Assembly (NCBI GenBank): GCA_025201345.1
Contig: JAIXMG010000005.1
Location: 310,001 to 374,000, forward strand
Reading direction: 5' to 3'
Source: Thamnidium elegans
Lineage: Eukaryota > Mucoromycota > Mucoromycetes > Mucorales > Mucoraceae
Length of the DNA: 64,000 bases
A program made the position numbers and the translations under genes. Under the pieces are notes generated by a model that was not told the origin of the DNA, did no database searches, and saw only the letters and a program-made list of their open reading frames with translations. Positions 34,884 to 60,188 of this stretch are shown piece by piece. Position 1 is the stretch's first letter. Each line of letters starts with the position of its first letter.

Positions 34884-37800
34884 TTACATTTCATTATCAA
34901 GTACTTCATTCATATCTACAGTAATCGTTCGTAACCCTCTTGCACTACACAACCTATTAAACTCGTCTTGTAAATCATGACCCATTTTAGAAACAATGTC
35001 ATCTGGTATATTAAACAAGTAACAGTTGATAAATACTTGTTTGGCATCTTTTAATAACTGATCGGCATTTGCGTACTTGTTGGTATCCAACTTTTTTCGA
35101 ATTGTACCAAAATCCATTGGCTTTTTAATGATATCAAAGTAAGTAGGGATTTGTAAAAGAACTGGATCCACAGGTACTCCAAATGCATAATAACTTGGAT
35201 GGTTTGTTAGCTTTTCAAGTACGCTCTTGTATTTACGTAATTCAGCTTTTGCAGGTGAAATCTCTTTAGGTACCTTAGTGTTGGAATGTGATTTAATGTT
35301 ACTTGTACCAGGCAAGTGCTTTGATGAGGATGGCGACGACGAGGCTGACGTTGAAGAGGAGCTAGTACCTGTTCGTAATTGTTCTTCCTTCTTTCGCAAG
35401 TTGGGTCCTTCCTTATTTAAAATACCTTCCAATACCTTGGCGTTCAAAGAAATAACATGATCAAAACCGTTGAAAGTATAGCAGTTGGTAAAAATAAGTC
35501 GCATATCACTTTCAAAATCACGAACACACTTGTATTCACCAGCCTTTAATTTCTTTTCCCTATAATAATGATAAAACTTAATAAACCTTATATTTGATTA
35601 AAATAAAAATAAAAACTTACATTGTACCGAAATCCATAGGCTTCTTAATCATCATAGGATAATGAGGAATATTTAAAGCAATAGGGTCAACCTATACAAA
35701 AAAAAAATAAAAAAAAAAATACAATTTTAGTAAATCTATTTAAAAACAATAAGAAAACACTTACAGGTTCTGTGAAACCAAATGCACATCTATGTGCTTT
35801 CATCTTGGTAAGGAAAGATTCTAATTTAGCCACCATAGCAGGATGTAACTTTTGAGGAGTTTCAAGACTAGGAGGTCTGATTGTGATGGAGTTCTTTACA
35901 GGTGCGCTACGATCTGAATCAATACCCATATTAGGAGCTTCTTCCTTTACAACAGACTTGCGATTAGACTTTTGTGCTGTATCCTTTGGAACCGCTGACG
36001 CCGTACTACTACTAGATAGCTTGACAGATTTTGAAGGAGGTTGTGGTATTTTATCAGAATACGAACTACTTAACTTTGTAGGACCTGGAGAAGCAGAAGG
36101 ACGTCTCTTTTTAGTACCAGAATTAGGAGCAGGTGAACTATTTATACGGGCTCTCATTTCTTTTCCAATATTATTATAATACACTTCCAACTTCTTTCCT
36201 TCGTCTGTCGCATACGAATTATTCAAATTATACGCGAAACAGTTTTTAAACACAGTACGGATATCATGATCGACAGCCTTCAAGCTAGAGTACTTGCCAC
36301 TTTCCAATTTCTCCCAAATTGTACGAAGATCCATAGGTTGTTTGACAATAGTCTTGTAATCCGGTAAAGATTCGACATCAACAGGTTCATTAAACAAAGC
36401 TGCTGCATCATGAAGTGTCAACTTATTAACCACTTTACTGGCAATACGTTTATCTTCTCCTTTCAAAGCGTTAGGAATAGCAAATTCTGCTGACCAAACC
36501 TGGTTAAAGAACTTTTCCATTGCCTGACATTGTTTAGCTACCCAAGATTCATGATCATTAAACCCATAACAATTCCAAAACACTTGACGGATATCTCTTT
36601 CCAACTCCCATACTGTATTATATTGATTGCCATCGTACTTTTTCTGAATAGCAGATAAATCCATAGGTCGTTTAATCACTTCGTAGTATTGCGGAATACC
36701 AAGCGCAACAGCATCCACTGGTTTACGGAAAGGTTCTGATTCTTGTAATCCCCATAATTTCTTTAATACACGGTTACATTTGACCTTGTTAACATCATTC
36801 ATCTGAGCATTGAATACCGGTCCTGTTGATTTAGGTGGCTTCGAAGAGCTTGCTGTAGATGACTTAGTAGAAGAACTTGATGTAGATGATTTAGTAGAAG
36901 AACTTGGTAAAGGTGGTGGTTTAGAAGATGAAGTGCTTGGTAAAGGTGATGGTTTAGGAGAAGATGAAGAAGCACTTGGCAAAGGCGATGATTTAGAAGA
37001 GGAAGAACTTGGTAAAGGTAATGGTTTAGAAGGAGAAACACTCGGTGAAGATGGTTTAGGAGAAGAACTTGATAAAGGTGGTGGTTTAGGAGAAGATGAA
37101 GTACTTGGTAAGGGTGGTGGTATACTTGATTTATCCATATGTTTATCTGTAGGTCTTTCATTACTATTGGACCTGTCAGTAGGTCCCTCCACTCTCTTGA
37201 TCTTAATCTTATGTTGTCCACTACTACTGCTATTATTATTACTATCACTAGAATCAGACTTTCTCTTCTTTTCTTTTCCAAAATACAATTTCCATTCCCT
37301 GTCATATGCTTCCTCCAACTTCTTTGATTCATCGTGCACATAGGTATCGGGTGGATTAAATGTATAACAGTTACTAAACATCAAACGCATATCACGATCC
37401 ATCGCTTGAGCATGAGGGTACTGGCCATTTTTAAATCGACTCTTGATTTTCCCTAAATCCATAGGATGTTTGATAATCTTTGTATATTGTGGAATGCCTT
37501 GTTTAATAGGATCAACAGGTCGTAAGAACTCAAACGCGTGAGGGTTTGCTATGGTCTTTGCAAGTACTTGTTCCATCTTTTCTCTTTCGCTTAACTTCAT
37601 TGGCTTTTCAGACATAGGTGTGATAGATTTCTTTCGTTCAGGAACCACTGGTTCTGATTGAGTCATGCTAATGGACTTTACTTTAGATTTAGGCGGTTCT
37701 GATTGAGTTATGCTGATGGACTTCACTTTAGACTTTGGTGGTTCTGATTGAGTCATACTGATAGACTTGACTTTAGGCTTTGGTGGTTCCATAACAACAG

Positions 37801-40800
37801 AAGGAGTAGTAGTATGCGGAAGAGTCGCATGTGTAATACGAGGAGTTGTAGCAGGGCTTTCAACAATCGTCATATTTTGAGTCTCCTCAGCATGTTCCTT
37901 ACCACGTAAATTCTCCAACTCCTTTTCAAATACAGCTTCCAATTCCTGCCCTTCATTATAAACAAATGTACCAGGTCCATTAAACGCATAACAGTTACTA
38001 AACATCAATCGAACATCATCTTCAAATTGACGGAACGTAGTATACTCCTTATTTTCCACTTTACGTTTAATCATACTAAGATCCATAGGTTTCTTTATCA
38101 CTGTATAGTATCCAATAGCACCATCCAAGACCTCATCTACAGGTTGAGTAAACGACAAAGCACAATGTTGTTTGTTTAACTTATTGATCACTCTACGACA
38201 CTTTTTCAATTCTTCTGCAGTGTGACTATCGACCTTCTTATGTTTTGGTTTAGGTGGTGCAACTACAATTGTAGTAGGTGTCCTTGGGGGCGGTGTTCCA
38301 TTGGCAGCTGGCGTAGGTGTTACAACACGTTGTAATGGTTCAACAATCAATGGCGAAGGTTTCTTTGGTTTTTCAATTACAGTACGGTTCTTGGGTGGTT
38401 CAACAATGGTCATGTTTTCAGGTACATCGTCAATTTCTGTAAATGTAGGGGAATCAATTGTTGGTTCAGAAGAAAGTGGTATATCTTGAGGTAATGATTC
38501 TGTTTTAACACTTAGACTATTTGACTTTTTATGCTTGGATGATTCTATTAAAAAAGAGATATAAGTTATTTATATAATACTCAACACAAAAAAAAAAGAA
38601 AGATATACTTACTTTCTTCTACTCGATGCTTGGGTTTATTAAGGCGAATAATTGGCGAGCTGGTAGGCGTAGTAGGTTCGGAAGAACTTTCATCATTTGT
38701 ACTTGAAGTAGGTACAGTAGGTACACGAATCGTAACCTTGAGTCCAATATCAATTGGCTTAAACGTATATTCACAAAACTGTAACAAATACTTGCGAATA
38801 CAATGATCTAATTTTTGATTTTCAGGTGTATTTAACAAGTTCCATAAATCCTGCTGTAATTCAACATCATTTTCAAATCTCTTTCTTAAATTCTCGATAT
38901 TTGAATGAAATTCTTGTTGTGCTGTCTTCTTGACATGGACACGATCATCATCAATGACCACTCTACCCTCTTCCTCTGCAAATTCTTCAATGTATCGTGA
39001 ATTGGTAGGCGTATCTGATTCACCCTTCATAGCTAAACCTAACCATGCCAGCATGGCCCGTGCAACATAATGAGATACAAGTACACAAGGATCTTCCTTC
39101 ATCACACTAAGCAAGTACTGGTTAAGCGTAGGATCAGAGAGTCCACACAAGATAAACAAACTATCAAAGGCAGTCAATCGAATCTCCAAGTAATTACCGT
39201 ATCGTGTATACTGCATAAACATTGGTATATTGACTGGCAACATATCTTTCAACATCAATTTGGTCATTGTTTTTAAACAAGTGACCGTAATAATATTATG
39301 ATAAGTTGGAATCACATAATCCAAAGTACGGAACCGTTCAATTTCTGCTTTCGCCGCTGCATTTACATGGTCTCCTTCAAAGTCGTCTACTGCATCATCT
39401 CTAGTAGGAATCAAAGCATCGCCTAATGAAGAAACCAACGTAGCCACATAATAACAGTCTGAAAATTCATTTCCAATATTATCGTTATACTTTAACAAAT
39501 CCAACAAGAATTGACGTACACGTACAGGGGTTAAACCACGATCATCTCTGACTTGAGAGAACGCGACCACCGAAGCCTTTTGAATGAAATAATCAGGTAA
39601 ACTAGAGAAATTATTAGGTTTGGGTATAGAAAACGTCATTGGTAATTCTTCATCGTCCATAGCTGATTGACTGAAACTGCTAACAGGGAAACAATAACGT
39701 TTATGGAACATCTTGTTCAATTGATGTAAACCAACCCAATCTAAACCAGGAATCGCACACGACGCAAGTCCATAAGCTGCTTCCATTCGAATCTTATAAA
39801 AACACTTCGGATCTAACACAGCTCGTAAGAAACTAGTAGACGTAGGTAAAGAAGGCATGTGTTTTAAAGCATCAATAGCTTCATGTTGTGCAACCACATC
39901 GCGATCCTTTGTTAATTGTGCTGCCCACATGTAATCGGGTTGTTTAAAATCACAAATACAAAGCCATTCGAATTCTGCATCGAGACGAATCCAATCAAAC
40001 ATGGCACTTGCTGCACCACTGGTATCTTCTTCATCTTGACCCCATTCAATAATACGCCAATCTTTCTTTTGTGTAGCATCTTCAAAGATGGGCATACCCA
40101 AGCCTAAACTAGGAATAATACCCAGCACCATATTTCCCTCTGTGCCTTCTTCGTTCTCTTGTTCCTCTTCTGCGACGGCTGCTGCTGCTGCTGCTTGCTT
40201 TGCTAAAAATCTCTTTGTGTTTCTTCTGATACGCTTATACTTTGTATTAAACTGTACTTCAAACTTGTGTTGTGTAGACTGAATATCCAAGATATGCTCG
40301 TAGGGTGTACCATCAGCCTCATGAATACGTACGGTTAAATTACCCGTAAATATGGGTGAAATCAATTCTTGATAATTTACAGCACTTCCATCGATTCCCA
40401 AATGTTCATAGCCAGAATACAGGGCATTATTCGTATTCTCTTGACTCATATGAATTTCAACCACCATCTTTTTACGATTGAAATGAAATTTAAAAGAGAA
40501 TTTGGGACATCCAGATTTATAAATCCATTGCTCTGCAAATACTTTGGTATCAAATCCGCTGACTTTTCTACACAGTCTTAAAAAGAAATGCGTACTGATG
40601 GCATTTTGTGCTAATTCTCCACTCATGGCAGAAACAAGTACTTTTGGTAACACGCGAGAAAGACCTAATGTTCCTCCTCCTTTACACATTCTTTTATCAA
40701 GCATATAAATGACAATAGGTGCTTTTAAATCAATAAAGTCTAAATCCTCTGGATCCAATGGGTACGGTAATGTTTGATTATAAACCGGTGGTCGATTGAT

Positions 40801-42700
40801 ATCTAACATACAGCATAATTCCATATCCTAATAATATATACATGAATAACTCCTTGTTATTATAACAACCACACGCACACACACAAATTTACCTTTTTCA
40901 GTCTTAAACGATATTCATTGTTACCCAAATGACGTTTAATAAACAACGATCCCATTAGATTAGCAATGCCACGTACAAGCCAGGTATCAGCCCAAGACTT
41001 TTGTACAATGTAAATACCAAACCATTGTCTGGCAAGAGCTTGACTTAGCTCACGTCTAGTACTGTATACTTGATCGATGATATCTTCAGGGTGTAGTAAT
41101 CGAGAGCTACAAATAGTTAATGAAGCACTCGATGCTGTATCAGACCAAGCATCTTCAACAAACACAAGTTTGTAATCTGAAAAAGGGTATGAACCATATT
41201 CCTGTGTATAAAAATGCATAGCCTAAAAAAAATTGTAAGATATACGTCCATTAAAAATAGAATCATAATATCAAAAACTTACATGCATCAAGAAACTACA
41301 ACTGACACTCAATTCTTCTTCTGATCCAGGTAAAGCAAACGCATAGATATTAGACATCATATTAATTTCAGCCATTAAACTTTGTTGTTGATTTTCATCC
41401 AAGTCAGCAGCCGTCATGACTTCTTCCTGTAGTTGCGAAGGAGATAACTTGATCATTTTGAAGGGTCCAATAGCGAATCCGATAAATGGTGCAGGTGTGG
41501 GTTCAGATAAACGATAATGTACAATTTTTTTAGTCGCATCTGTTGGATGAATGACTTGTTCTAATACTTCTCCACTACAAACAACTACCATACCATCCAC
41601 TTCATCAAACGCACCTTCTCCGTCGTATTCGGGTACAATAGCTCCCTCATCTTTACGTGGTACAATAAATTCCATATCCCAGGTACATCGATCAGCTATG
41701 TTGTCAATGCATGGTAACCATGACCGTGTTGCTCCAGGTAATGGTTGATTGACTGTATATACATGGTTCGACCGCTACATATAAAAAAAAATCAGTAAAA
41801 AAAAATGTAAACTTTATCAAGTATTATAACTTACATAGGGTGCAATTTCATCATCTTTTTGTACAAATACAACTCCATTACGTGGATCATCAAGAGTATA
41901 CTCGATACGAATAACAAGTGAAGAATACGTGGGTTCAACAGGTTCCGCCGGTTCTGTTGTCAACGTTGGTTTTTCAGGATCTGAAGACTCTACAGCTATA
42001 TTTGTTTATCAGTATATTATGAAATATTCCGATAAATATCTATCTATATACCTCTTGGTTGTGTAAATGTTGATGTATTGTTAATTAATTGGCTCGCTTC
42101 ACCTTCAGATATCTTGTTGCAGTAAAAAAAAAAATGGTTAGTTACAACAACAAGGTGAAAAATTTAAAAATGATCGTGTACCTTTTTAATACAGTCTGTT
42201 GGTAATTTGACGTTTAATTCACCTTCATCGGCATCTCTTAAAGCATTTAAATATCTACTCTTGTATACCTGATGATGAGCAATAGTTGTGTTTGAACCTA
42301 ATGTAAGATCTGATACTGCATCAACATAATCAAATTCAACAGCAATGTCGTTTACAAATGCTTTTTCGATTTCTATATATTATTAAGGTAAGTGTGATTT
42401 GTTGATAAAAAAGGATTCACAAAAAAATAAAATAGAGCTTACTGCATTGTCGACAATTAATTCGTAAATTGGTAAGTTTATTGTTTAATGGTTGAATCGT
42501 AAGTTCTGCTAAACCCTGTACGAAAGCGCGTATTCTTAGTAACTTTTTATTTTTTTTTAAGTGAGTTTTATTACCTTGATAGTTCGTTGGCTAGGATCGA
42601 CTTCAAGTACAAACCGTTCATGACTCGTATTGAAAATAAAAAAACTGTCAGTCTCACGCGAATATAATAACTCTGTCCCATTAGTAATACTTATAATGTA
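34884..42700 (-). CDS. TAF2: TAF2 (TFIID subunit 2) fused to six bromodomains
   Basis: Exons, from 5': about 42700-42575 (start codon not resolved), 42515-42443, 42372-42182, 42112-42052, 41995-41835, 41774-41283, 41222-40893, 40827-38613, 38544-35765, 35691-35621, 35559-34884. This gives about 2,390 residues. The first half (about 1,175 residues after exon 1) is TAF2. It has an M1-aminopeptidase-like fold with VHYRLSEPTPAPFIGFAIGP, and ALARQWFGIYIVQKSWAD where active peptidases have HExxHxWFG, so it is inactive. HEAT-like repeats follow. A GTAAGT...TTTAATAG intron (38612-38545) joins KPKHRVEE to KSSKHKKSNSL and on to the bromodomains, in frame. These lie near 38224-37900, 37585-37270, 36790-36480, 36470-36145, 35840-35400 and 35270-34940. 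All keep the acetyl-lysine Asn (NCYAFN, NCYTFN, NCYGFN, NCFAYN, NCYTFN, NCYLFN). Expected role: promoter recognition within TFIID combined with acetyl-histone reading. Confidence 0.88.
37649..37783 (-). repeat. Three tandem 45-bp repeats in the bromodomain linker
   Basis: The linker between bromodomains 1 and 2 repeats PPKSKVKSISMTQSE three times with few changes; the DNA unit is 45 bp. A recent in-frame tandem duplication. Confidence 0.85.
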
Positions 42701-43495
42701 AAGGTCTTTTTAAACACGTCTCTCTGCATTCTTTTTAAGTTGTTTTTTTATATATGTTGATAGCGTTTTTGTATGTATATAATAGAAAGAAAAAGTAATT
42801 ACAAAGAAAAAAAATATGTGTAAAAAAAAAGAGTGTTGCAATCCCTTCTTTATTAGTTTTTTTATTTTAGTTCTTCCTTTATACTTTTTTGGACTTCGGG
42901 AAAAGGACGAAGAAAAAAAAAAGAAAGTGTGCAAAAAAACCATTTAAAAAAAATTATCGACACGTCATCAAATTTTGCTCTTTTTCCTTCGCTTTTTATT
43001 TTTTTTAGCTTCTAATAGATATACAAACAGTTTTTAAAGCTGTATTCAAGTAAATAATAGAAAGATGATATCCTCTTTAAACAGAAAGAAGAAGAAAAAA
43101 GAATACATTAGCATCTTGAATCCTTTGAAAAAAGAAAGAATAATGAGACAAGATGAACGCATCTTTCTTCCCACACTGTTTTCTCTTTTAGGTTGTGCTT
43201 TTTACGATACGAAACAGAAAAAAAAACGAACCCTCTTCTTTTCCAATACACACTTTACTTCTTAAATGTTGTAATTTTAACCTTAAACACACTGCTGTTT
43301 TAAGGTAACCCAATCAAAAGTACGCTTCCGCGCGTCACAACCTTTTTTTTAAAAAAAGAAAATTTTTCTCACATCTTGGAAGTCTTTTTTTTTAAAACGT
43401 AATTAACATCCATCTCATTCAAAAAGGATTGATCAACACATAATCTTTTTTTTTTGAAAAAAAAAATCGTTCCATTCTTATCTTCTTTGTACAAC
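42701..43495. promoter_or_regulatory. Divergent region between TAF2 and UBE2E genes
   Basis: Holds the unresolved first exon and start of TAF2 and the leader of the E2 gene. Candidate TAF2 starts are ATGs near 42943 and 42726, but neither gives a clean splice into the first recognised exon by eye. Many A and T runs; no specific motif. Confidence 0.4.
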
Positions 43496-60105: not shown

Positions 60106-60188
60106 TGCTGACTGTGAGATTCGAACTCACGCCTCTTGCGAGACCGCAACTTGAGTGCGGCGCCTTAGACCAACTCGGCCAAATCAGC
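60106..60188 (-). tRNA. tRNA-Leu(CAA)
   Basis: 83 nt on the minus strand, from 60188 to the discriminator A at 60106. The acceptor stem GCTGATT pairs with AGTCAGC with one G-T pair. The A box is TGGCCGAGTTGG and the B box GTTCGAATC. The anticodon arm is CCGCA-CTCAAGT-TGCGG, anticodon CAA, which reads UUG leucine. A long variable arm (TCTCGCAAGAGGC region) fits a type II tRNA. There is no intron, although tRNA-Leu(CAA) of many fungi has one. A T6 run four to six bases downstream (60099-60104, complement) is the expected RNA polymerase III terminator. Confidence 0.96.

Follow-up and report, generated by a model that had tools for sequence, protein, structure and literature searches.

The window analyzed here is a stretch of 64,000 nucleotides from Thamnidium elegans (GenBank assembly GCA_025201345.1, contig JAIXMG010000005.1, positions 310,001 to 374,000 of the forward strand), and the positions below are counted from its first letter. 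The minus strand carries a 12-exon gene (42729-34884) whose exons join in phase and give 2378 codons and a stop. The gene encodes TAF2, subunit 2 of TFIID, followed in the same chain by six bromodomains (BD1 to BD6). The spliced product of 2378 residues is identical in every letter to the GenBank prediction BDF21DRAFT_378346 of T. elegans (P0001 in the comparisons below). The original prediction, made from the letters alone, had proposed such an in-frame fusion, and a single spliced frame indeed contains it. The gene limit given there (42700) is corrected, since the start codon lies further upstream, at 42729. The parts of the gene are the following.

34884-42729, minus strand: whole TAF2-bromodomain gene; the start codon is at 42729 and the stop ends at 34884, as in P0001.
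42729-42695, 42626-42575, 42515-42443, 42372-42182, 42112-42052, 41995-41835, 41774-41283 and 41222-40893, minus strand: eight 5' TAF2 exons, within the alignment to residues 31-1135 of 6hqa_A.
38613-40827, minus strand: large TAF2 exon, with the end of the aminopeptidase-like part, the Ig-like PF25316, the repeat PF25577 (Pfam) and the start of the linker.
38722-38745, minus strand: GLKVTIRV (residues 1160-1167), just behind the TAF2 core, a predicted ET-domain docking motif of the pattern hxh[KR]h.
38545-38612, minus strand: junction intron of 68 bases (GT-AG, phase 1) between the TAF2 exon and the bromodomain exon.
35765-38544, minus strand: bromodomain exon (926 codons and 2 bases), with linker, BD1-BD4 and the start of BD5.
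37907-38206, minus strand: BD1, residues 1317-1416.
37289-37579, minus strand: BD2, residues 1526-1622.
36488-36781, minus strand: BD3, residues 1792-1889, modelled together with BD4 (mean pLDDT 93).
36158-36442, minus strand: BD4, residues 1905-1999, 15 residues behind BD3.
35403-35827, minus strand: BD5, residues 2110-2206, spread over three exons (introns 35764-35692 and 35620-35560).
34944-35237, minus strand: BD6, residues 2262-2359.

The first intron of the gene (42694-42627) has AT-AC ends (ATAAGT...AATAC). With it removed, the translation begins exactly as the deposited protein does (MQRDVFKKTFTL-SHERF).

Residues 1 to ~1158 are TAF2, as indicated by Pfam domains and by alignment to solved Taf2. 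The Ig-like domain PF25316 (1e-30) and the C-terminal repeat PF25577 (2.5e-56) both score above the curated cut-offs in the large exon, and the aminopeptidase-like (M1) domain PF01433 is precomputed for P0001. The TAF2 part is collinear with Taf2 of PDB 6hqa_A (residues 31-1135, E 4.2e-135). This Taf2 and human TAF2 are the closest solved relatives of the large exon. PF25577 has a single match in the T. elegans genome; the genome was searched in six frames without regard to introns, which means that a domain split between exons may escape.

Joined in phase 1, the exon ends at 38613 and 38544 give ...RVEE-K-SSKHKKSN... and lead into exactly 926 stop-free codons, as had been proposed. The two parts are separated by 68 bases and not by the 69 first counted. 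Two further exons complete BD5 and BD6, also in agreement with the first reading of the DNA. The junction intron resembles the nine other GT-AG introns of the gene (56-73 bases). If it is read through, TAF2 stops after ...EESKYIFLFFLC. The earliest in-frame ATG of the tail exon is found at 38413 (codon 44) and, judged by the DNA alone, could serve as a separate start. The residues ahead of it (KSSK.HKK.NS..IKTES) are kept in Mucor and Parasitella, both without that methionine, and in Helicostylum, which has it. The conservation of these codons in Mucorales fits one protein and not a separate gene starting at 38413.

The bromodomain family PF00439 matches the two pieces of the tail at 5.4e-90 and 1.6e-30, and together with the PF25577 score these values exclude chance. 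All six domains keep the asparagine of the NCxxFN/NCxxYN signature, as was claimed from the letters. With the relatives included, this pocket asparagine is present in 398 of the 431 full-length bromodomains (442 domain matches in all). The 33 domains without it are all BD1 (32 in TAF2 with three bromodomains, one in TAF2 with two). In these fused TAF2, among them those of Malassezia, Ustilago relatives, Pisolithus and Paxillus, the asparagine is replaced by threonine or serine, so the ligand of BD1 may be lost or changed there.

Bromodomain identity of T. elegans with Mucor, Parasitella or Radiomyces is 61-75%, whereas five of the six linkers are 20-49% identical; the short BD3-BD4 linker reaches 73-80%. 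In Endogone the bromodomains share 44-54% and the linkers 17-40% with those of T. elegans. The contrast is weaker in Fennellomyces (BD3 49%, BD3-BD4 linker 47%). Since the bromodomains are better kept than the linkers and retain the pocket asparagine, they look maintained for ligand binding.

The type of the bromodomains is indicated by per-domain scores. On a profile built from TAF2 bromodomains, the two BET loci of T. elegans score 97-118 bits, the best of the other domains at the loci examined, and a two-bromodomain gene on contig C25 scores 102-107 bits. The BRD7/9-like, SNF2, BRPF-like and TAF1 domains reach only 42-72 bits. Against the solved structures in the PDB, the bromodomain exon finds human BRD4 chains first and second (~66 bits per BRD4 domain). 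Human polybromo (PB1) comes third when its whole chain is counted (118 bits over five matches), because five weak matches add up, none of them above 31 bits per domain. The ET domain (PF17035) was not found in the tail pieces, and its genome matches fall only on contigs C24, C8 and C4; the TAF2 fusion is therefore not classed as a BET protein. No BAH domain was found in the tail pieces with Pfam either, and the sole BAH match of the genome is on contig C37, where no bromodomain matched. On present evidence, the array is BET-type by per-domain similarity. A structural model of BD3-BD4 (mean predicted local distance difference test, pLDDT, 93; predicted template modelling score, pTM, 0.85) has the BRD4 and human TAF1 tandems as best matches in a fold search, which does not separate the families.

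A tree of 112 bromodomains (ultrafast bootstrap) relates the array to those of other fungi. BD2 of Mucoromycota falls with Mortierellomycota and Basidiobolus (support 82), BD4 with domains of Dimargaritales (94), BD5 with BD3 of Mortierella (98), and BD6 with BD4 of Mortierella and BD2 of Calcarisporiella (100). The T. elegans BET and human BRD4 domains fall with BD5, BD6 and the basidiomycete BD3 (95); the other positions are tied to BET less clearly. Some long branches look misplaced, including TAF1 among BD1.

The fusion is not confined to T. elegans. The search for TAF2 relatives, which used the TAF2 portion as query, accepted proteins of 0.55-1.75 times 2382 residues, which favours long fused TAF2, and 120 of its 333 matches are listed. 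A second search, with a query of 692 residues (~381-1211 residues accepted), favours unfused TAF2 and fragments, and 120 of its 138 matches are listed. Neither is an unbiased census, and chytrids, most Glomeromycotina and animals are barely sampled. Lineage names are those to which the listed species presumably belong. At least two bromodomains are present in every one of the 120 relatives listed in the first search, as counted with a profile built from the same TAF2 bromodomains, and the precomputed Pfam PF00439 is found in 120 of 120. Three bromodomains are the most frequent number (71 proteins), followed by four (27), six (14), five (four proteins), two (three proteins) and seven (one protein, P0034, a low-quality model with broken domains). 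Among the matches listed, six copies occur in 13 Mucorales proteins and in Endogone; the other 16 of the 29 Mucorales proteins have 4 or 5, several of them being partial or shorter models. The listed Umbelopsis have four, Mortierellomycota two to four, and Zoopagomycota three to five (Dimargaritales three to five, two Kickxellales three). The named Basidiomycota (Ustilago relatives, Malassezia, agarics and others) have three. Where the original prediction credited this fungus with the fusion, it is thus common to the listed Mucoromycota, Mortierellomycota, Zoopagomycota and Basidiomycota; the suggested search of fungal proteomes finds the architecture in several phyla.

No bromodomain is found in the five named Ascomycota TAF2 listed in the second search (Lipomyces, Schizosaccharomyces japonicus, Starmerella, Lophium and Exserohilum), nor was one matched in the 1756-residue Taf2 of PDB 6hqa or in human TAF2. 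The TAF2 of Geosiphon (P0156, one gene model) is also without bromodomains. This listing also contains fragments and truncated models. Some deposited models deserve a comment. Dichotomocladium (P0022/P0027), Zychaea (P0021/P0029) and Sporodiniella (P0019/P0026) have two listed TAF2-bromodomain proteins each, possibly paralogues. The protein of Mucor velutinosus (P0004) is deposited as erg10 acetyl-CoA acetyltransferase, a name that does not fit. The Bifiguratus model P0033 contains WD40 and RING domains besides TAF2 and bromodomains and is probably mis-joined.

A short motif lies between the TAF2 core and the array. In yeast, the ET domain of Taf14 binds the extreme C-terminus of Taf2 through a motif hxhKh, according to the available parts of PMC9177701 and PMC7442819. 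T. elegans has two copies directly behind the core (IGLKV and VTIRV). The pattern hxh[KR]h is present between core and BD1 in 83 of 119 fused TAF2, against 28.0 expected from composition shuffles of each linker or tail separately; P0017 was dropped from the 120 because no linker remained to scan. Where the core end is well placed, the motif is found in 56 of 70 fused TAF2 (10.5 expected), in 55 of these at most 40 residues from the core. Among the unfused TAF2 that reach past the core it is found in 16 of 29 (5.3 expected), 13 times within 25 residues of the C-terminal end. Several motif-less unfused sequences appear to run into an intron. The presence of the motif in fused and unfused TAF2 suggests that it may be ancient, with the bromodomains placed behind it.

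The sole PF12157 (TAF1) match of T. elegans is on contig C16, where the six-frame search gave no bromodomain match. Read by eye, the TAF1 frames run from an N-terminal stretch to the zinc knuckle and then stop. The original prediction had pointed to a possible lack of bromodomains in both TAF1 and the homologues of Bdf1. None is found at TAF1; the Bdf1 homologues do not lack them, since two BET loci (C24 and C8) each combine two bromodomains with an ET domain, by position and not as full gene models. With two such loci present, the fusion does not replace Bdf1, and a loss of Bdf1 in T. elegans is rejected.

Several further loci were recorded. L018 (C25:258885-260010) has two BET-like bromodomains, with no ET match on that contig. 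L019 (C45:458666-460700, on the contig of the window) has bromodomain pieces and, beside them in the same orientation, a frame with ankyrin repeats; it lies ~106 kb from the TAF2 gene. A PHD-bromodomain (BRPF/Nto1-like) gene (L020/L022, on C4 and C1) and SNF2-bromodomain loci (L026/L023, on C26 and C30) are present in paired copies; these pairs and the BET pair suggest retained duplicates. Within the window, a tRNA-Leu (CAA) on the minus strand (60106-60188) is the sole RNA gene found by ARAGORN and Rfam.

Among fungal TAF1 (120 listed of 1301 matches, fragments among them), a bromodomain is present in 22, of which 21 are from Mortierellomycota and one is from Geosiphon. The pocket asparagine is kept in all 22. 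No bromodomain is found in the listed TAF1 of Mucorales, Umbelopsis, Endogonales, Dimargaritales, Kickxellales and Basidiomycota, nor in one listed TAF1 of Mortierellomycota (P0314, from a metagenome-assembled genome). As Mortierellomycota have bromodomains in both TAF1 and TAF2, their TFIID would have readers on both subunits.

An alternative is that gene prediction has fused two neighbouring genes in error, one for TAF2 and one for a multi-bromodomain protein. The unspliced TAF2 stops at the junction, the ATG at 38413 offers a candidate start, and some Mucorales models (P0121 and P0122) have no tail. These two models, however, end within the TAF2 core and are thus truncated models and not unfused TAF2, and only 68 bases lie between the exons. 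Against the two-gene reading, the fusion is seen again in each of the 120 listed relatives, from several phyla, and the residues between the intron and the ATG are conserved in Mucorales, some of which lack that methionine; it is therefore rejected as very improbable. It is less far-fetched, although still unlikely, that the gene gives rise to two forms. If the junction intron is kept, the product would be a bromodomain-free TAF2 of ~1213 residues, with the full core and the predicted docking motif, and splicing would give the reader form, resulting in two kinds of TFIID. The retained-intron layout is like that of the unfused TAF2 with the motif close to their C-terminal end (13 of 29), but the intron itself looks like the other GT-AG introns of the gene.

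The origin of the tail is also open to other readings. The original prediction named it polybromo-like, and the count of six stands. The type does not, given the per-domain scores (PB1 at most 31 bits, BRD4 ~66) and the absence of a BAH match in the tail. A polybromo or RSC-type module, that is, a SWI/SNF reader fused to TFIID, would agree with six bromodomains in one chain and with the rank of human PB1 as third-best solved chain. The copy number of 2-6 among the listed relatives and the single genomic BAH match, on a contig without a bromodomain match, argue against it, and this origin is rejected as the least probable of the readings considered. A transfer of bromodomains from TAF1, between two subunits of TFIID, is improbable but less so. 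It would be in line with the bromodomain kept by the listed TAF1 of Mortierellomycota and Geosiphon, with the position of TAF1 domains near BD1 of TAF2 in the tree, and with the second rank of the human TAF1 tandems in the fold search. On the other hand, the TAF2-bromodomain profile gives TAF1 bromodomains 42-69 bits but the T. elegans BET domains 97-118, and the TAF1 domains are placed in the tree on long branches.

The gene product is thus probably a TFIID subunit 2 whose C-terminal tail has a BET-type bromodomain array built into it; the array would read acetylated chromatin near promoters and would have been gained in an early fungus. As its yeast and human counterparts do, the TAF2 core would occupy the lobe of TFIID that faces the promoter. 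Through the flexible tail, as many as six bromodomains would be able to contact acetylated histones, or other proteins with acetyl marks, close to the promoter. With its flexible linkers and the compact BD3-BD4 pair, the tail would add avidity, and the reading of acetyl-lysine by the tail would hold TFIID at active chromatin. It is plausible that the array reads acetyl-histones within TFIID. The motif behind the core would dock an ET-domain protein, either a Taf14-like YEATS reader or a BET protein. In the simplest history, BET-type bromodomains would have been gained behind the motif in an early fungus, lost in Ascomycota, and grown to six in Mucorales and Endogone.

Several observations weigh against this reading. 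Two bromodomain-bearing BET loci remain in T. elegans, so replacement of Bdf1 alone would not call for the array. The presence of bromodomains in both TAF1 and TAF2 of Mortierellomycota excludes a strict either-or. In the tree, the TAF1 bromodomains lie inside the TAF2-BD1 group, on long branches, no cross-phylum BD1 group as a whole reaches support 80, and deep support is mostly weak; descent from BET is therefore not proved. Human TAF1 tandems also take second place in the BD3-BD4 fold search, and polybromo takes third place by whole chain. As to the motif, the excess is small where the core end is poorly placed (49 of 119 fused TAF2; 27 found, 16.8 expected, with part of the core scanned). 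It is absent from 36 of 119 fused and 13 of 29 unfused TAF2, and agarics such as Sparassis and Paxillus have VTIHLP, outside the pattern. The motif counts also come from related sequences and are hence not independent.

A wider history is tentative, and somewhat easier to doubt than to accept. Chromatin reading in TFIID would have moved between subunits: BET-type bromodomains would have been gained on TAF2 behind an ancient ET-docking motif, and the TAF1 bromodomain then lost in most fungal lines, Mortierellomycota keeping both. Ascomycota would have lost the array but kept the docked Taf14 and the trans-acting Bdf1. Bromodomains intrinsic to TFIID would on this view be the older state among opisthokonts and not a metazoan gain, with a secondary loss in yeast, and a single intron could toggle between reader and non-reader TAF2.

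The manner in which TFIID finds promoters is known mainly from budding yeast, which has no bromodomain inside TFIID, and from human, which has bromodomains in TAF1. The arrays on TAF2 in several phyla and the TAF1 bromodomain of Mortierellomycota indicate that bromodomains intrinsic to TFIID occur outside animals as well, and budding yeast may be a poor guide to TFIID in many fungi. Since the array is found in several fungal groups and not in human TAF2, these fungi may read chromatin through another TFIID subunit than animals do. This would be a natural swap of reader and subunit within TFIID. BET inhibitors are proposed as antifungals in the available part of PMC5454392. BET-type bromodomains in a presumably essential factor would bear on their use.

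Several known systems resemble the fusion in part. Polybromo (PBRM1) also has six bromodomains in one chain and belongs to another complex than TFIID, whereas the tail of T. elegans is nearer to BET per domain and no BAH was found in it. The double bromodomain of metazoan TAF1 is likewise a set of acetyl-lysine readers within a TFIID subunit, with two copies, whereas the fungal array is on TAF2, has 2-6 copies and is of another bromodomain type by sequence score. The bromodomains of yeast Bdf1 and Bdf2 are linked to TFIID and are thought to help to hold it on chromatin, according to the available parts of PMC8266393 and PMC13373324. They are BET-type bromodomains tied to TFIID, as in the fusion. 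Yeast Bdf1, however, is a separate protein that contacts Taf7 via its ET domain, whereas in T. elegans the bromodomains belong to TAF2 itself and the tail gave no ET match. The array would play in cis the part that Bdf1 plays in trans and that the TAF1 double bromodomain plays in animals. In yeast Taf2-Taf14, the C-terminal tail of TAF2 also mounts a lysine-acyl reader, with a similar hydrophobic-basic motif (PMC6220335, PMC9177701, PMC7442819, each in its available part). This module has been proposed, in the available part of PMC6220335, to stand in for the TAF1 bromodomains. Its reader differs, being a YEATS protein held non-covalently, and no bromodomain matched the Taf2 of 6hqa. In Cryptococcus neoformans, CNAG_03273 is named in passing as a TAF2 orthologue among bromodomain alignments; the available part of PMC12844337 does not discuss its architecture or function. 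Databases already hold TFIID subunit 2 entries with a bromodomain match (e.g. P0076). In the open literature, as far as its available text extends, nothing beyond that line was found on the fusion, on how widely it occurs or on how it relates to TAF1, and an earlier report may exist elsewhere. A reader within TFIID itself is already known from TAF1; what would be new here is a TFIID-borne bromodomain reader placed on another subunit and made of another bromodomain type.

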